From NCBI RefSeq assembly GCF_029167645.1, contig NZ_CP119147.1, forward strand, positions 1,178,001 to 1,242,000: a stretch of DNA of 64,000 nt, written 5' to 3'. This document shows positions 1 to 60,736 of this stretch, piece after piece. The stretch's first letter is position 1. The number at the start of each line of letters is the position of its first letter. A program made the translations under genes and the position numbers. The DNA is from Streptomyces sp. AM 2-1-1. GTDB lineage: Bacteria; Actinomycetota; Actinomycetes; Streptomycetales; Streptomycetaceae. The notes under the pieces are model-generated. The model made no database searches. It was not told the origin of the DNA and saw nothing but the letters and a program-made list of their open reading frames with translations.

Positions 1-2469
1 GTAGCGGGACATCGGCTCGAAGGCCCCGGTACGGGCGCTCTCGTGGTCTTCCGCGAGGTACGTGTGGAGCAGTACGGCGACCCGCCCCGCGTCGGGGTCG
101 AATCCGTGGCGCGCACGGGCCCGGCGGTACAGGTCCACGTTCTCCCGGAGCTGTTCGACGCTCTGGGTCATCAGGTTGGTGACCACGCCCAGATCGTGCC
201 GGGCCGCGAGTTCGTACGACTCCGGGTTGCCCACCACTGCCGTGTAGAGCGGTGGCATGTCCTGCACGGGCTTCGGGAAGAGCCGGATCTCGCGCACCCC
301 GTCCCCGGTGGTACGGCGCACCGCCTCGCCCCGCCAGAGGCGCCGTACCTGCTCCACCTGTTCGTACATCTCCTGTTTGTGGCGCCCGAAGCGGTCGGGG
401 AAGAAGACGAAGTCGTTGGCGTTCCATCCACTCGCCACACCGAGTCCGACGCGTCCCCCGGAGAGGTTGTCCGCCATGGACCATTCCTCTGCCACCCGGA
501 CCGGGTCGTGCAGCGGGAGCACCACCGATCCGGCGTTGAGACGGATACGCCGCGTCTCCCGGGACAATGCGGCAGCCAGCACGGCGGGGTTGGGGAAGAG
601 GCCGCCGAACGAGTCGAAGTGCCGCTCGGGCATCCACAGCGCCTGGAAGCCGTGTTCGTCGGCGAACCGGGCCGCCTCCATCAGCAGTTCGTACCGTCCG
701 CCCTCGGTGTCCGATGGTTCCCGGGGGTAGTCGCCGAAGAAGTACAGGCTGAAGTCGGCCGTGCGGACGGCGGTTCCTCGCGCCGGCTCACGCACCGGCT
801 CGGCTGCCGGCTCCCGTACAGGCGCGGAGGCGGGAGCCGGTACGGACGGGGTGCCGGGGGCGGGGACCCCGGTGGCTTGGCGGGCGGGCCTCGGTGCGGG
901 GGCCGGAGGACGGGCGGCCGGGAAGAAGCCGGCCCTGCGCAGTTCCCGGAGCGACTCGCGGACGGCGTGCGCCACGTGCTCGATGTCGCTGTCGGAGTGG
1001 GCGGTCGAGAGGAAGAAGTTGCGCCACTCCCAGACGTGCACGCCTCGCAGCATCAGGTGGTAATACAGCAACTCCATGTCGGCGCGGTGCTCGAAGCGGA
1101 ACTGCGAGCCGAACCAGGCGACCCGCAGGGGGAATTCCTCTTCCTCGAAGAAGGTGTTCAGTCCCGTGGCCAGTTCGGTGGTGCGGTCGTTGAGCTGCTG
1201 CTGCAGCCGGGGACTGCGCTCCTTGAGGTGGGTGAGGACGGCACGTGCGGCGGTCATCGACACCGGGTGCTGGAGGTAGGTGCCGCCGAAGAAGGTGGTG
1301 TCGGCCGGTGGGCCGCTGGTGTCGCCGTAGCTCCAGTACCCGCCGTCGACCCCGTCCATGATGTCGGAGCGGCCGGCGACCGCGCCGATCGGGAATCCGC
1401 CGCCGAGCAGCTTGCCGTAGGTGGCGAGGTCGGGAGCGACGCCGTAGAGCTCCTGCGCGCCCCGGAGCGCCGGGCGGAACCCCGTCAGCATTTCGTCGAA
1501 CATCAGGACGATTCCGTGACGTGACGTCAGGTCGCGCAGTCTGCGCACGAACTCGACCGGCTGGAGAAGGGGGTTCCTGCTCTGCACCGGCTCGATGATG
1601 ACCGCCGCGATCTGTGCGGCGTCCCGCTCGATCGCCTGCAGCGCCTCCTCGCTCCCGTAGGTCAGCACCGTCAGCTCGGCGACGGCACTCTGCGGGATGC
1701 CCCGGGACACGGGGACGGTCCCCGCGCCACCGCCCCGACCCGCGAAACGCCCCAGCACCTGGTCCGCGTGGCCGTGGTAGGCGCCCTGGAAGGTGACGAT
1801 GCGGTCGCGGCCGGTGGCGGCGCGGGCCAGCCGGATCGCCGCCGCGTTGGCCTCCGTACCGGAGTTGGCGAACGCCACCCGGTCCATCCCCGTCAGCTCG
1901 GTCAGCAGCTCCGCCGCCTCACCGGTCTCCACGCTGCGGGGGCCGAGCCGGATGCCCCGGGAGAGGTGCTCGCGCACCGGCTCCCGGACGAACTCGGGCT
2001 CGTGACCGAAGAGCAGGACACCGAAGCCCATGGTGATGTCGACATAGCTGTTGCCGTCGATGTCCTCCACCCGCGAACCCTCCGCGCGCCGGGCGGCCAC
2101 CGGGTAGAGCATCTCCTTGGTCGACCCGCGGAAGCCGACGACCGCCCTGCTGTCGGCGAGTCTCCTGCGGTGGCTCTGAGCCAGTCGTTTGGAGCTAGCG
2201 GTCCGTGCGGTGTAGCGGCGTACCAGCTCGTCCAGATGTTCCTGCTGCCCGCGCGGGGCCGTGCGGCCCACCATGCCGGAGCCGGGGGCGACCACCACGC
2301 GGGGGCCGTGCGCCTGGGGCTGTTCCACCGGCGGCGGCGCCGGGGACTGCTCCGCCGGCGCCGCGGCGGGTACCCGTGCCCCCATCTGCTCGGCGATGCG
2401 CTCAGCCAGCCCGGCCATGACGGCCAGATCCTGGTCCAGATCCTGGGCGAATCTACCCCCGTCGTTCAT
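1..2469 (-). CDS. Class III aminotransferase fused to luciferase-like monooxygenase (AMT-LLM), 3' end outside window
   Basis: The first 823 codons are present and the frame runs off the left edge. Residues 1-80 are a helical and Pro/Ala-rich lead-in. Residues 85-515 are a PLP-dependent class III aminotransferase of the glutamate-semialdehyde type, with SGTEAN near 203, FDEMLTGF near 324 and the PLP lysine K353 in YGKLLGG. After a Pro/Ala linker, residue 571 onward is a luciferase-like FMN monooxygenase of the kind fused to secondary-metabolite synthases (RHFDSFGG, NAGSVVLPLHDP, GVASGWNANDF). By analogy with MycA and McyE, the AMT should convert a beta-ketoacyl chain on a carrier protein to a beta-amino chain. 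The LLM may oxygenate it, but its substrate cannot be read. The start codon overlaps the upstream polyketide synthase stop (ATGA), so translation is probably coupled. A carrier or condensation domain may lie beyond the edge. Confidence 0.88.
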   Translation of the reverse strand, partial: MNDGGRFAQDLDQDLAVMAGLAERIAEQMGARVPAAAPAEQSPAPPPVEQPQAHGPRVVVAPGSGMVGRTAPRGQQEHLDELVRRYTARTASSKRLAQSHRRRLADSRAVVGFRGSTKEMLYPVAARRAEGSRVEDIDGNSYVDITMGFGVLLFGHEPEFVREPVREHLSRGIRLGPRSVETGEAAELLTELTGMDRVAFANSGTEANAAAIRLARAATGRDRIVTFQGAYHGHADQVLGRFAGRGGGAGTVPVSRGIPQSAVAELTVLTYGSEEALQAIERDAAQIAAVIIEPVQSRNPLLQPVEFVRRLRDLTSRHGIVLMFDEMLTGFRPALRGAQELYGVAPDLATYGKLLGGGFPIGAVAGRSDIMDGVDGGYWSYGDTSGPPADTTFFGGTYLQHPVSMTAARAVLTHLKERSPRLQQQLNDRTTELATGLNTFFEEEEFPLRVAWFGSQFRFEHRADMELLYYHLMLRGVHVWEWRNFFLSTAHSDSDIEHVAHAVRESLRELRRAGFFPAARPPAPAPRPARQATGVPAPGTPSVPAPASAPVREPAAEPVREPARGTAVRTADFSLYFFGDYPREPSDTEGGRYELLMEAARFADEHGFQALWMPERHFDSFGGLFPNPAVLAAALSRETRRIRLNAGSVVLPLHDPVRVAEEWSMADNLSGGRVGLGVASGWNANDFVFFPDRFGRHKQEMYEQVEQVRRLWRGEAVRRTTGDGVREIRLFPKPVQDMPPLYTAVVGNPESYELAARHDLGVVTNLMTQSVEQLRENVDLYRRARARHGFDPDAGRVAVLLHTYLAEDHESARTGAFEPMSRY

Positions 2470-5400
2470 CGGACCGCCTCACCGTCGAGCCGTTCGACCG
2501 CCGAGGCGTTCTGCGCGGCGAGCAGCTGGGACAGTTGCGTCATCAGCTGGAGCTGGATCTGGGACATCTGCCGCACCTGGCGGGCCAGCTCGTCGAGCTC
2601 CTGCCGAGTGACGAACCCGGCGGGAGGGGCGACCGAACTCGACGGGTCGACTCCCGCGGGGGACGGCGGCCGCACCGCCGTCGGAGCTTCGAGGGCGGGC
2701 GGGGCGAGGGTGGGCGGGACCGAGCGCTGTGGCGGAACCGCGAGCGGGACCGGTGCGGCGGCGGGGGTTGCGGGGGGCACCGCGTGCGATGCGGGGGCGG
2801 TCGGTTCCGGGGCCGCTGCCTCGGCGGTGCGCTGCGGCCCGGAAGCCGCTCCGGACGCCCGGGGCAGTCGCGCGGCGATCAGCTCCGCCAGCAGGCGGGG
2901 TGTCCCCGTGTCGTCGAACAGCTCCCTCATCGTCACCTTGACCTGGTGCTGCCGCTCCAGCTCACGCAGGACGTTGATCATCAGCAGGGAGTCCGCGCCG
3001 AGATCGAAGAAGGGGGTGTCGACCGGCACGGAGGTGAGATCCTCTCCGAAGCTCTGCGACAGCACCCCCAGAATGCTGTCGAGTATGTGCCCGGCGTCTG
3101 CCTGGTCCGCTGCCACGATGGCTTCCTCTCTCACTCGTATTTCGGGTCCCGGGGCCATGGGTGGCGCCCCCGCCCAGTGGTGTCGGTGCTGGAAGCGGTA
3201 ACCGGGCAGCGGGATCCGCCGCCCCCCGGTGCCCGCCAGGAACAACTCCCAGTGCACGTCCGCGCCCGCGCAGTGGAGTTCGGACGCGGCGCCCCAGAGG
3301 GGGGCGAGCCCGCTGCCCCGCCGCAGGGACGGGACCGCCCGCACCGCGGGCAGGGCCCGTCGGGCGAGACCGCTGAGCGTGCTGTGCGGCCCGATCTCCA
3401 GCAGTACGTCGGGCCGCAGACCGGCGACGGTGCGCAGGGCCTCGTCGAAACGGACCGGTTCGCGGGCGTGGCGCACCAGGTGATCCGGGTCCGGGACCCA
3501 GCCCGGTGCGCGGGTCCGCCCGTCCAGGGAGCTGATGAGGGGGATCCGGAGAGGGGCGAAGGGCATCTTCTCCGCCAGTGCCCGGAACTCATCGAGCATC
3601 GGTTCCGTCAGCGCGGTGTGGAAGGCCCGGTCCACCGCGAGCCGTTCGTACGGGGTGCCGCGTCCGTCGAGCAGGGTGCATGCCCGGTCCACCGACGCCA
3701 CGGGCCCCGCGAGCACCCGTGCGAGCTCCCCGTTGGTCACGGCGAGCTCCAGACCGGGCACCGCGGCGACGAGCGAGGCGGCGGACTCCTGATCGACGGC
3801 CGCGGCCACCATCGCGCCGGGCGGGCAGAGCCGCCGCATCAGCCGCCCCCGGGCCGTCACGAGCTCCAGCCCGTCCGCGAGGGTCAGCGCCCCGGCCGCG
3901 TACAGTGCCGCGTACTCACCCACGCTGTGGCCGGTCACGGCCTCAGGGGCGACGCCCGCCTCCTGCCAGAGCCGGACCAGGGCGCACTGCAACGCGTACA
4001 GGGCGGGCTGGGCCGTCCCGGTCGGCCAGACGCCGCCCTCCGCACCGCCCCCGCCACCCGGGACAGGACCGTCGGTGAGCAACCCCGCGAGCAGCGGTTC
4101 CCCGGTGAGCTCGCGGTGGAGCCTCTCACAGTGGTCCAGCACCTCGCGCACCACGGGGAACCGCTCGTACAGATCTGCCGCCGCTCCCGGGTACAGGGCG
4201 CCCTGTCCGGTGAACTGGTGGACGATTCCGGGTTGTTCACCGTCGCGGGATGCGGTTCCGGTGACCGTGTCCGCGGACGCGGTACCGGCGAGCCACCCGT
4301 CCAGGGAGTCGGCGAGTGCGGACGGGGTGGCGCCCCGGACGGCAATCCGGTGACGTCCGTGGGAGCGGCCGAGCGCGGCGGTGGTGACGAGATCGGCCGG
4401 GGAGAGCGCGGTCCGCCGGCGCAACTCGTCGCGGAGCGTGCGGGCGTTGTCCGCCAGGGCGTCCTCGGAGGTCGCGGAGACCAGGAGCACGTCCGGCGGA
4501 GCGGCCGAGCCCGAGCGGGGAGCCGGTTCGGGCGCCTCCTCCAGGATCAGGTGCACATTGGTGCCGCCGATGCCGAGGGAGGTCAGACCCGCGCGGCGGG
4601 GGGTTCCGGTCTCCGGCCACGGCTGGGGCGACCGGGGCGCGTAGAACGGGCTGTCGTCCAGCCGGAGCAGGGGGTTGGGTTCTTCGAAGCCTCCGATCGG
4701 CGGGATGACGCCGTGCTTCAGCACCAGCAGGGCCTTGACCAGGCCTGCCAGACCGGACGCCACGTCGAGGTGCCCGATGTTGGTCTTGACCGCTCCGAGG
4801 GCGCAGTAGCCGGTGCGCGCCGTGTCCTCCCGGTACGCGGCACCGGCACCCTCCAGTTCGATGGGATCGCCCTTCAGCGTGCCGGTGCCGTGGGTCTCCA
4901 GGTAGCCGATGGTCTCCGCGCCGACACCCGCGTGGTCCAGCGCCCGGCGGACGGCGATCCGCTGGCCCTGTGCGCTGGGCGCGGCGAACGCCCTCTTTCC
5001 GGAGCCGTCGTTGCAGATGCCCCAGCCCCGGATCACCCCGTGCACGGTGTCGCCGTCCACGAGGGCGCGGTCGAGCCGCTTCAGCACCACGGTCACCACC
5101 CCGGTGCCGCCGACCGTTCCGTTCGCCGCGGCGTCGAACGCCCGCAGCCGGCCGGTCTTCGAGAGGATCGAACCCTTCACGTAGTGGTAGCCGAGCACTT
5201 GGGGCACGTGGATGGCGGCGGCTCCCGCCAGCGCGACATCGCACTCACCCGTCAGAAGTGACTGCGCTGCCAGATGAACACCCACCAGCGAACTGGAGCA
5301 GGCCGTCTGCACATTGACGGCGGGGCCGGTGAGGCCCAGGCGGTAGGCGACCCGGGTGGCGTTGAAGTCGGTGAAGTTGCCCACCAGGATCTGCATTCCC

Positions 5401-59615: not shown

Positions 59616-60698
59616 TCAGTTCTCCGCCGGGGCGTGGACCGGCATGACCAGGGTCGTGAAGCTCCCCTGGTCGGCGGAGCGGACGACTACCGGCTGGTCG
59701 GGCCCCGTGATCTCCAGCAGGATGTCGGGGCCCACGCCCGCATCGAGCGACGGCAGGAGAACCGCCGGGTCGAAGGCGATGCGCAGGGACGGCCCGGTGC
59801 AGAGAGCGGCCGGGGTGGCGGAAACCGTGTCGCCGAAGGCGACGGTGAGCCGTTGTTCCCCGCTCCGGGTCCGCAGGACGACCGGGCCGTCGTGCACACC
59901 GCCGGCGACCGCCGCGCGCAGGACGGCCCGGTCCACGATGATGCGGTGCCGCGCGGCCGGCAGGCCGTCCAGCATCGGCCGGTACTCCGGAAAGGTCCCG
60001 TCGACGGTCGCGAGGTCGCGTGCCGTCCCGGCACCGAGGAGCCGCACGCTCTGCCGGTCCGCTTCGATCCGGAGGTCCAGGAGCCCCGCGGCCCAGGCGG
60101 CGGCCTCCCTCAACTCCTCGGCACCGACCAGGAACGCACAGGGATCGCCCTCACCCGAGAAGGAGCGCAGGGCGCGGACCGCGAGGCGGTAGCGGTCCGT
60201 GGCCACCAGCCGTACTTCCTGGCCGTCGAGTTCGAGCAGGACGCAGCCGAGTACCGGGAACTCCGCGGCGGCGGGCCCCGACGCAACCGCCGGGGCGACC
60301 TGCCGGACCGCTCCGGCGAGTTCGGCTCCGCCGATCCGCGCCGTCGTCCGGCGCGGGCCGCCCGGCAGCTCCCGGAGGATCTCCTCGATCGCCGACTGGG
60401 CGGTCACGGCGGTCTCCCGCGCCCTTCTGGCGTGCGCCTCGAGTACGGCACGGGCCTCGTCGCGGCTGCCGCCCAGGACCACCGAGGCGTCGGTGAGCGG
60501 CATCCCGGCTTCGCGCAGCCGCCGCACCAGGAGCGCGCGGCGCTCCTGCCCCGGCGAGTAGTAGCGGTAGCCGGTCGCGGGATCCACGTGCGCCGGGGGA
60601 AGCACGTCGCAGTCGTCGTAGAAGCGCAGGGCGCTCGGAGCCAGACCCACCCGGCGTGCGAAGGCGCCGATGCTCATCAGCGCGTCGGTGTCGTCCAT
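59616..60698 (-). CDS. MerR-type regulator fused to DNA polymerase III beta-clamp domains
   Basis: A 360-residue fusion. Residues 7-75 form a MerR winged helix (SIGAFARRVGLAPSALRFYD, then GYRYYSPGQERRALLVRRL), and about 80-112 form a dimerising helix. Residues 118-235 match clamp domain 2, with VLGCVLLELDGQEVRLVATD and RYRLAVRAL. Residues 240-354 match domain 3, with DGTFPEYRPML at the junction and TTLVMPV at the end, as at the C-terminus of beta clamps. Clamp domain 1 is replaced by the DNA-binding domain. Either the clamp folds bind a ligand or partner, or they form a ring-like dimer on DNA; neither can be read. The start is fixed at 60698 by a promoter ending seven bases upstream. Confidence 0.9.
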   Translation of the reverse strand: MDDTDALMSIGAFARRVGLAPSALRFYDDCDVLPPAHVDPATGYRYYSPGQERRALLVRRLREAGMPLTDASVVLGGSRDEARAVLEAHARRARETAVTAQSAIEEILRELPGGPRRTTARIGGAELAGAVRQVAPAVASGPAAAEFPVLGCVLLELDGQEVRLVATDRYRLAVRALRSFSGEGDPCAFLVGAEELREAAAWAAGLLDLRIEADRQSVRLLGAGTARDLATVDGTFPEYRPMLDGLPAARHRIIVDRAVLRAAVAGGVHDGPVVLRTRSGEQRLTVAFGDTVSATPAALCTGPSLRIAFDPAVLLPSLDAGVGPDILLEITGPDQPVVVRSADQGSFTTLVMPVHAPAEN

Positions 60699-60705
60699 GC
60701 GGGCG

Positions 60706-60736
60706 ATTGTCGGCTCTCAAGCCGCTTGAAGGTCAA
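60706..60736 (-). promoter_or_regulatory. MerR-type promoter and operator of the fusion regulator
   Basis: Read leftward: -35 TTGACC (60736-60731), a 19-base spacer and -10 GACAAT (60711-60706). The spacer contains TCAAG-CCG-CTTGA (60717-60729). An over-long 19-base spacer with a central dyad is the hallmark of promoters that MerR proteins activate by untwisting DNA. Only seven bases separate the -10 box from the ATG, so the mRNA is probably leaderless. Confidence 0.8.

Follow-up and report, generated by a model that had tools for sequence, protein, structure and literature searches.

Within a 64,000-nucleotide stretch of DNA from Streptomyces sp. AM 2-1-1 (contig NZ_CP119147.1, positions 1,178,001 to 1,242,000; hereafter the window), one gene encodes a protein that joins a MerR DNA-binding domain to domains 2 and 3 of a DNA polymerase III sliding clamp (DnaN). 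We propose, with confidence that falls a little short of even, that this MerR-clamp protein is an autoregulated, TipA-like ligand sensor in which a two-domain sliding clamp serves as the effector domain, such that a ligand of the clamp pocket would induce the protein and then be mopped up by it. The switch probably senses something that sticks to clamps, through their peptide-binding pocket, and this may possibly be an antibiotic.

A MerR domain fused to two sliding-clamp domains

A sequence-only reading of the window had suggested that a MerR domain stands in place of clamp domain 1, and both Pfam (PF13411, 49 bits against a cut-off of 21.6) and VIA-align bore this out, with the fold match to clamps spanning residues 117-357 only and clamp domain 1 absent. 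The same reading had described domains 2 and 3 as clearly kept, which holds for domain 2; domain 3 is recovered by structure and is weak by its Pfam profile. The clamp motifs that it had picked out are indeed retained, as TDRYRL, FPEYR and LVMPV align to Escherichia coli DnaN (Table 1). Its caution that a frameshift might have joined two genes was also examined, and a frameshift or assembly artefact was rejected because the fusion lies in a single open reading frame (ORF) and recurs in many genomes.

Profile A1 splits its matches in 391 genomes of the same order into three score groups, namely SF1 (above 400 bits in full-length matches, the window protein included), SF2 (255-295 bits) and SF3 (133-189 bits; at least about 93 matches counted by eye, 63 of them fetched and examined). 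Duplicate loci were dropped (L003=L044, L005=L043, L006=L045, L008=L049).

Against the curated dnaN model (TIGR00663) the window protein scores 48.9 bits, below the cut-off of 137.65 bits, and an ordinary DnaN is present elsewhere in the window's genome (G000). Dimer-interface positions 272-273 of clamp domain 3 are gaps in 22 of 24 SF1 rows, and a ring around DNA is unlikely because clamp domain 1 is lost. A protein with a kept pocket and no probable ring could, in principle, act on replication directly, itself or as a clamp-only form, by competing with DnaN for polymerases; such a role would leave the MerR domain and the gene's own promoter in need of another signal, and we consider it extremely unlikely, the coexistence of host DnaN and fusion in G000 speaking against it while being compatible with it too.

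Table 1. Positions in the window of the MerR-clamp gene, its domains and motifs, its promoter and the neighbouring TPR gene
Feature	Position	Strand	Basis or remark
MerR-clamp gene, SF1 subfamily, 360 amino acids	59616..60698	(-)	
MerR winged helix-turn-helix (HTH), residues 8-75	60474..60677	(-)	Pfam MerR_1 6.7e-13
Long helix, residues 79-110, presumed MerR dimerisation coil	60369..60464	(-)	AlphaFold2 secondary structure; role inferred from MerR family
Clamp domain 2, residues 117-238	59985..60350	(-)	Pfam DNA_pol3_beta_2; VIA-align 117-357 to clamps
Clamp domain 3, residues 239-357	59628..59984	(-)	VIA-align; Pfam DNA_pol3_beta_3 below cut-off
Pocket motif TDRYRL, residues 167-172 (E. coli clamp 172-177)	60183..60200	(-)	Alignment to E. 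coli DnaN
Pocket motif FPEYR, residues 236-240 (P237 = E. coli P242)	59979..59993	(-)	Alignment to E. coli DnaN
Pocket motif LVMPV, residues 350-354 (E. coli 360-364)	59637..59651	(-)	Alignment to E. coli DnaN
MerR-type promoter/operator TTGACC-19 bp-GACAAT	60706..60736	(-)	7 nucleotides between -10 hexamer and ATG
TPR-fold partner gene, 218 amino acids	58804..59460	(-)	155 nucleotides after MerR-clamp stop

The protein-binding pocket is kept better than the rest of the clamp

We took the pocket residues from PMC11139829 and mapped them via E. coli DnaN (L103). In the window protein L150, T167, R169, Y170, R171, L172, P237, L350, M352, P353 and V354 match the E. coli or host clamp, with D310, V313 and H355 in place of E. 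coli N320, Y323 and R365. Across SF3, N320, R246, R365, M362 and P363 are kept in 18/18 loci and most other pocket residues likewise (the 18-locus SF3 counts, here and for the TPR gene below, leave out L085 and L088), and in SF1 residues L155, T172, R176, P242, M362 and P363 are near-invariant.

When the majority residue of each group was compared with the DnaN of G000, SF3 agreed at 16/18 pocket versus 58/222 other positions (Fisher 1.7e-7), SF1 at 11/18 versus 58/222 (Fisher 0.003) and SF2 at 11/18 versus 48/222 (Fisher 0.0007). Divided by subsite, agreement with host DnaN came to 10/12 subsite I and 6/6 subsite-II-only positions in SF3, and to 8/12 and 3/6 in SF1. Conservation within each group was likewise higher at the pocket than elsewhere (permutation p <5e-5 for SF3 and 0.002 for SF1). 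The sequence-only reading had left three functions open for the clamp fold, and of these a ligand pocket or a platform for clamp-binding peptides fits best, since conservation is stronger at the pocket residues than over the remainder of the clamp; the third, a tie between transcription and replication, is taken up below.

The stretch RSADQGSFTTLVMPV is near-invariant across 64 aligned SF1 proteins, which points to a specialised, SF1-specific pocket. This, together with the altered subsite II of SF1 and SF2 and the many kinds of ligand that MerR regulators sense (PMC9909328), would suit an explanation in which the clamp fold is a mere scaffold, the protein being an ordinary small-molecule MerR sensor whose former clamp pocket accommodates some hydrophobic drug or metabolite unrelated to clamp ligands. 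We judge this unlikely, as the identity of SF3 to the host clamp at 16 of the 18 pocket positions would not be expected if clamp-type ligands were irrelevant there.

The family carries its own MerR-type operator

The promoter that the sequence-only reading had located upstream of the gene is supported by its sequence. Target promoters of the MerR family have a long spacer of 19-20 bp (PMC9909328), and because the -10 hexamer is so close to the ATG, the gene is likely transcribed from its own promoter as a leaderless messenger RNA. A TTGACCYTC element stands just before 24/24 SF1, 20/20 SF2 and 64/64 SF3 genes examined. For SF1, 19 of these were found by script and L047, L061, L051, L059 and L062 were read individually; the SF3 count is the sum of 20, 42 and 2 genes, and only the 54 script-matched loci were used to read the 19-bp distance to a -10-like hexamer. 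SF3 genes may start at a GTG or at an ATG four codons on, the latter being common in database entries.

Allowing up to 3 mismatches, the SF3 operator occurred at 21 sites across the 20 SF3-bearing genomes scanned, all of them immediately ahead of an SF3 gene, with two genes and two sites in one genome; the reversed-pattern control gave 0 sites in the same 20 genomes. Among 20 genomes without a family match there was one site (L104, genome G014). The SF1/SF2 operator pattern was matched, with up to 1 mismatch, at 41 sites in 30 genomes; 30 of these sites stand before the genome's own gene, and the reversed control gave 1 site. In the window's genome its own site was the sole match to a stricter pattern with up to 3 mismatches; that pattern had no match in 2 of 7 other genomes, whose operators diverge more. 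From these scans we therefore suggest that the regulator's chief target is its own transcript, as far as can be read from sequence.

At L104 the operator is followed almost at once by a deletion relic that retains only the last 35 codons, and L101 and L102 (genome G056) are near-identical SF3 paralogues with an operator each.

SF3 genes have a conserved internal start

At the MerR/clamp junction of SF3, a start codon preceded by a Shine-Dalgarno sequence is present in 64/64 genes, 62 found by script and two (L156 and L114) read by eye. The scripted set comprises 59 ATG, 2 GTG and 1 TTG, and 61/62 lie at codons 118-123. In a 20-gene SF3 set the junction is the only internal start column with a Shine-Dalgarno in every sequence, excepting codon 5, which adjoins the SF3 N-terminus, and in the same set synonymous conservation peaks in windows that begin at codons 119-126 (z up to 3.2). 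The codon within the Shine-Dalgarno is AGG in 46/62 genes, AGG making up 4.5% of Arg codons in these genes, and in genes with Lys or Gln in place of that Arg the Shine-Dalgarno is still formed, by AAGGAG or CAGGAG. This conserved internal start predicts a clamp-only product for SF3.

A hairpin that might mask the internal Shine-Dalgarno was considered; the site is mostly paired in predicted folds (mean pairing 0.83), but the fold energy is no better than that of codon shuffles. We also noted that the Ser107 codon is TCC in 54/54 SF3 genes in which the motif was found (of 62) and that rare CTA/CGA codons are conserved before the internal start (codons 105-120), a hint of an RNA element there. 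At L114 (genome G001) the MerR half is out of frame in the sequence examined, and the operator, the internal Shine-Dalgarno and start, and the clamp frame are intact. In the window gene, a GTG at V98 with GGGAG six bases upstream (60405-60418, coil region) was considered as an internal start and set aside as chance because the column is not conserved in SF1.

Proposed mechanism

The sequence features that underlie our proposal are the MerR domain, clamp domains 2 and 3, the pocket, the promoter, the operator scans and the SF3 internal start, from which we infer autoregulation in the cell, a ligand, activation, sequestration and a role for the TPR protein. A clamp-pocket ligand, such as a griselimycin- or mycoplanecin-like cyclic peptide or another clamp-binding peptide, would shift the MerR dimer, which in turn would re-align the 19-bp-spaced promoter so that the gene's own promoter fires. 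The gene would then make more of itself together with a clamp-only form (SF3) or the TPR partner (SF1/SF2), and the clamp domains would sequester the ligand, sparing the true replication clamp; the TPR protein may take part in the SF1 response. That a regulator should mainly control itself would make sense here because the protein would also be the effector.

Griselimycin and mycoplanecin, from actinomycetes, fill the DnaN pocket at both subsites, mycoplanecin forming an additional bond to Arg365 of E. coli DnaN (PMC10817943). Because both compounds fill both subsites and the Arg365 bonded by mycoplanecin is kept in SF3, we regard the two as natural candidates for the SF3 ligand. A more specific possibility, which we find plausible but doubtful, is a target-mimic resistance switch, in which the pocket-bearing half of an essential antibiotic target was copied onto a MerR regulator, one SF3 gene gives both the sensor and a soluble clamp-only sponge, and a clamp-hitting antibiotic turns on its own decoy.

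Several observations weigh against the ligand-sensor proposal, particularly for the window's own group. Subsite II is altered in SF1, with N320->D and Y323->V in 23/24 loci, and Arg365 is kept in 14/24 SF1 loci, the window having His; because of the altered subsite, the SF1 ligand is probably related but different, and not the ordinary clamp-binding motif. In SF2 the pocket is only marginally more conserved than other positions (permutation p 0.046), and all of the pocket statistics (Fisher, permutation) treat columns as independent. A column scan of SF1, to which the window protein belongs, and of SF2 found no conserved internal start, and the stretch before the SF3 internal start is no more stable than codon shuffles (mean z +0.2; 6% below -1). 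The SF1/SF2 operator scan also returned 11 further operator-like sites in the 30 genomes; of the 6 inspected, 4 clearly precede a different MerR gene, one of these being MerR plus PP2C by Pfam, and 2 are ambiguous. Finally, the operator scans would miss more diverged target sites.

Neighbouring genes

The gene next downstream encodes a protein with a TPR fold (model predicted local distance difference test score, pLDDT, 94.9), and a simple scan of the window found no terminator-like site between the two. The top structure matches of this model, which include several peptide-binding TPR proteins, are near-tied and uninformative on function, and no clamp-binding motif was seen by eye in the TPR consensus, with no formal test made. 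A same-strand TPR gene lies within 1.5 kb downstream in 17/24 SF1, 18/20 SF2 and 0/18 SF3 loci, counts that include the short fragments L061 (52 residues) and L080 (39), and a match at L047 covering 133 residues; L049 had only 94 nucleotides of downstream sequence to scan.

The TPR gene is the only neighbour cluster common to more than 8/64 loci, and no cluster occurs in more than 3 SF3 loci. A replication or repair operon is unsupported, the TPR gene being the only widely shared neighbour cluster, and no replication-like neighbour was seen by eye among clusters in at least 4/64 loci, judged from their first residues. The suggested tie of transcription to replication thus gained no support, as there was no such neighbour cluster and no inspected operator before a replication gene, within the limits of a test in which neighbours were judged by eye and 5 of the 11 extra SF1/SF2 operator sites were left uninspected. 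These results bear equally on a replication-stress sensor, whose pocket would read the level of free cellular proteins or peptides with a clamp-binding motif and whose product would buffer them. SF3 does keep both pocket subsites like host DnaN, as such a sensor would; however, the SF3 operator was found only before SF3 genes and before no repair or replication gene, the neighbours are as just described, and subsite II is changed in SF1/SF2, so that we doubt this explanation.

Distribution and phylogeny

A protein search with the window protein (8000 scored candidates) gave 963 relatives at E up to 0.001; among the 120 relatives listed, all have the MerR Pfam domain and 109 a clamp domain-2 entry. 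Started from an SF3 member, the search gave 2292 relatives, 120 listed, and relatives beyond the 120 listed may match just one domain. Many of those listed bear the database names "MerR family transcriptional regulator" or "DNA polymerase III subunit beta family protein"; the NCBI entries so named are the same proteins, named after their domains, and the names carry no function. The sequence-only reading had stated that no characterised case was known to it; this is a widespread family with a database name rather than a single case. Searches of open-access literature, with subscription journals outside coverage, turned up no transcription factor reported to use a sliding-clamp fold as its effector domain, and nothing recognisable as this fusion.

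SF1-type genes occur in a minority of the 391 genomes of the order, and in a scan of 396 genomes across the phylum, SF3 matches exceeding 350 bits came from 4 Streptomyces genomes and one other (G587). The minority occurrence of SF1 would suit an anti-phage or anti-mobile-element device that senses or soaks up phage proteins binding the host clamp, and a complex of the clamp with Gp168, which we take to be a phage protein, is among the solved structures listed. In PADLOC, P0001 and one SF3 protein matched through the MerR domain alone (mad1) and the TPR protein had no match, neighbours not being scanned for defence genes, and we consider this role very unlikely.

The clamp tree separates DnaN, SF3 and SF1 plus SF2, with SF2 nested inside SF1 and SF3 a separate clade; it is unrooted, with 76 rows, 23/62 SF3 genes, flagged long branches and a bootstrap that had not settled. 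In the MerR tree SF3 falls beside MerR-PP2C proteins (support 96/85), and grouping all clamp-MerRs in one clade is not rejected (p-AU, approximately unbiased test, 0.32, without SF1_L051, L059, L061 and L062 and with L117 and L125 placed in SF2; 0.104 with the mis-cut row SF1_L051 and L117/L125 grouped as "other"). The MerR and clamp trees fit either one fusion event or two.

Two kinds of related protein were seen in passing. Homologues P0089, P0096, P0112 and P0116 are longer SF1 members (432-498 amino acids), the additional residues being low-complexity sequence within the clamp part; P0116 has such sequence at its N-terminus too. L105 contains a fusion of a MerR HTH to a PP2C-type phosphatase (2260-3378; Pfam check in L105 only), with similar ORFs in L107, L109 and L110; this gene has a MerR-type long-spacer promoter just upstream, and its MerR domain groups beside that of SF3.

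Comparison with known systems

The closest parallel in proposed working is TipA of Streptomyces lividans and its MerR-TipAS class (AlbA, SkgA, Mta), with which the MerR-clamp proteins share a MerR HTH, a ligand domain and a promoter of their own, an operator being recognisable by sequence before every family gene examined. The tipA gene uses two start codons to give TipAL and the drug-sequestering TipAS (PMC7762955), and AlbA has the same two-product layout (PMC6078987); SF3 would share this second in-frame start yielding the ligand domain alone, by prediction, whereas SF1 has no conserved internal start. The effector of TipA is TipAS (PF07739), here replaced by a clamp, and Pfam scans found no PF07739. 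The family is therefore TipA-like in its proposed working and not a member of the TipA class, because the TipAS domain is absent. If the target-mimic switch is real, it would resemble TipA but use the drug's own target as the domain that binds the drug.

Nor is the protein a DnaN. In common with the beta clamp (TIGR00663) it has domain 2, domain 3 and a large part of the protein-binding pocket; unlike DnaN, it lacks domain 1, has MerR at its N-terminus, does not keep positions 272-273 and misses the dnaN cut-off.

Should the ligand be a clamp-targeting peptide, many actinomycetes would hold a ready sensor and sponge for griselimycins and mycoplanecins, which are studied against tuberculosis; this would be relevant to resistance surveillance and could offer a reporter for new clamp inhibitors. 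A related case is found in the self-resistance clamps GriR and MypR of the griselimycin and mycoplanecin clusters (PMC10817943), each likewise a second clamp-derived protein that could meet clamp-targeting peptides, although GriR and MypR are described as DnaN genes inside biosynthetic clusters whereas the MerR-clamp protein is a regulator.
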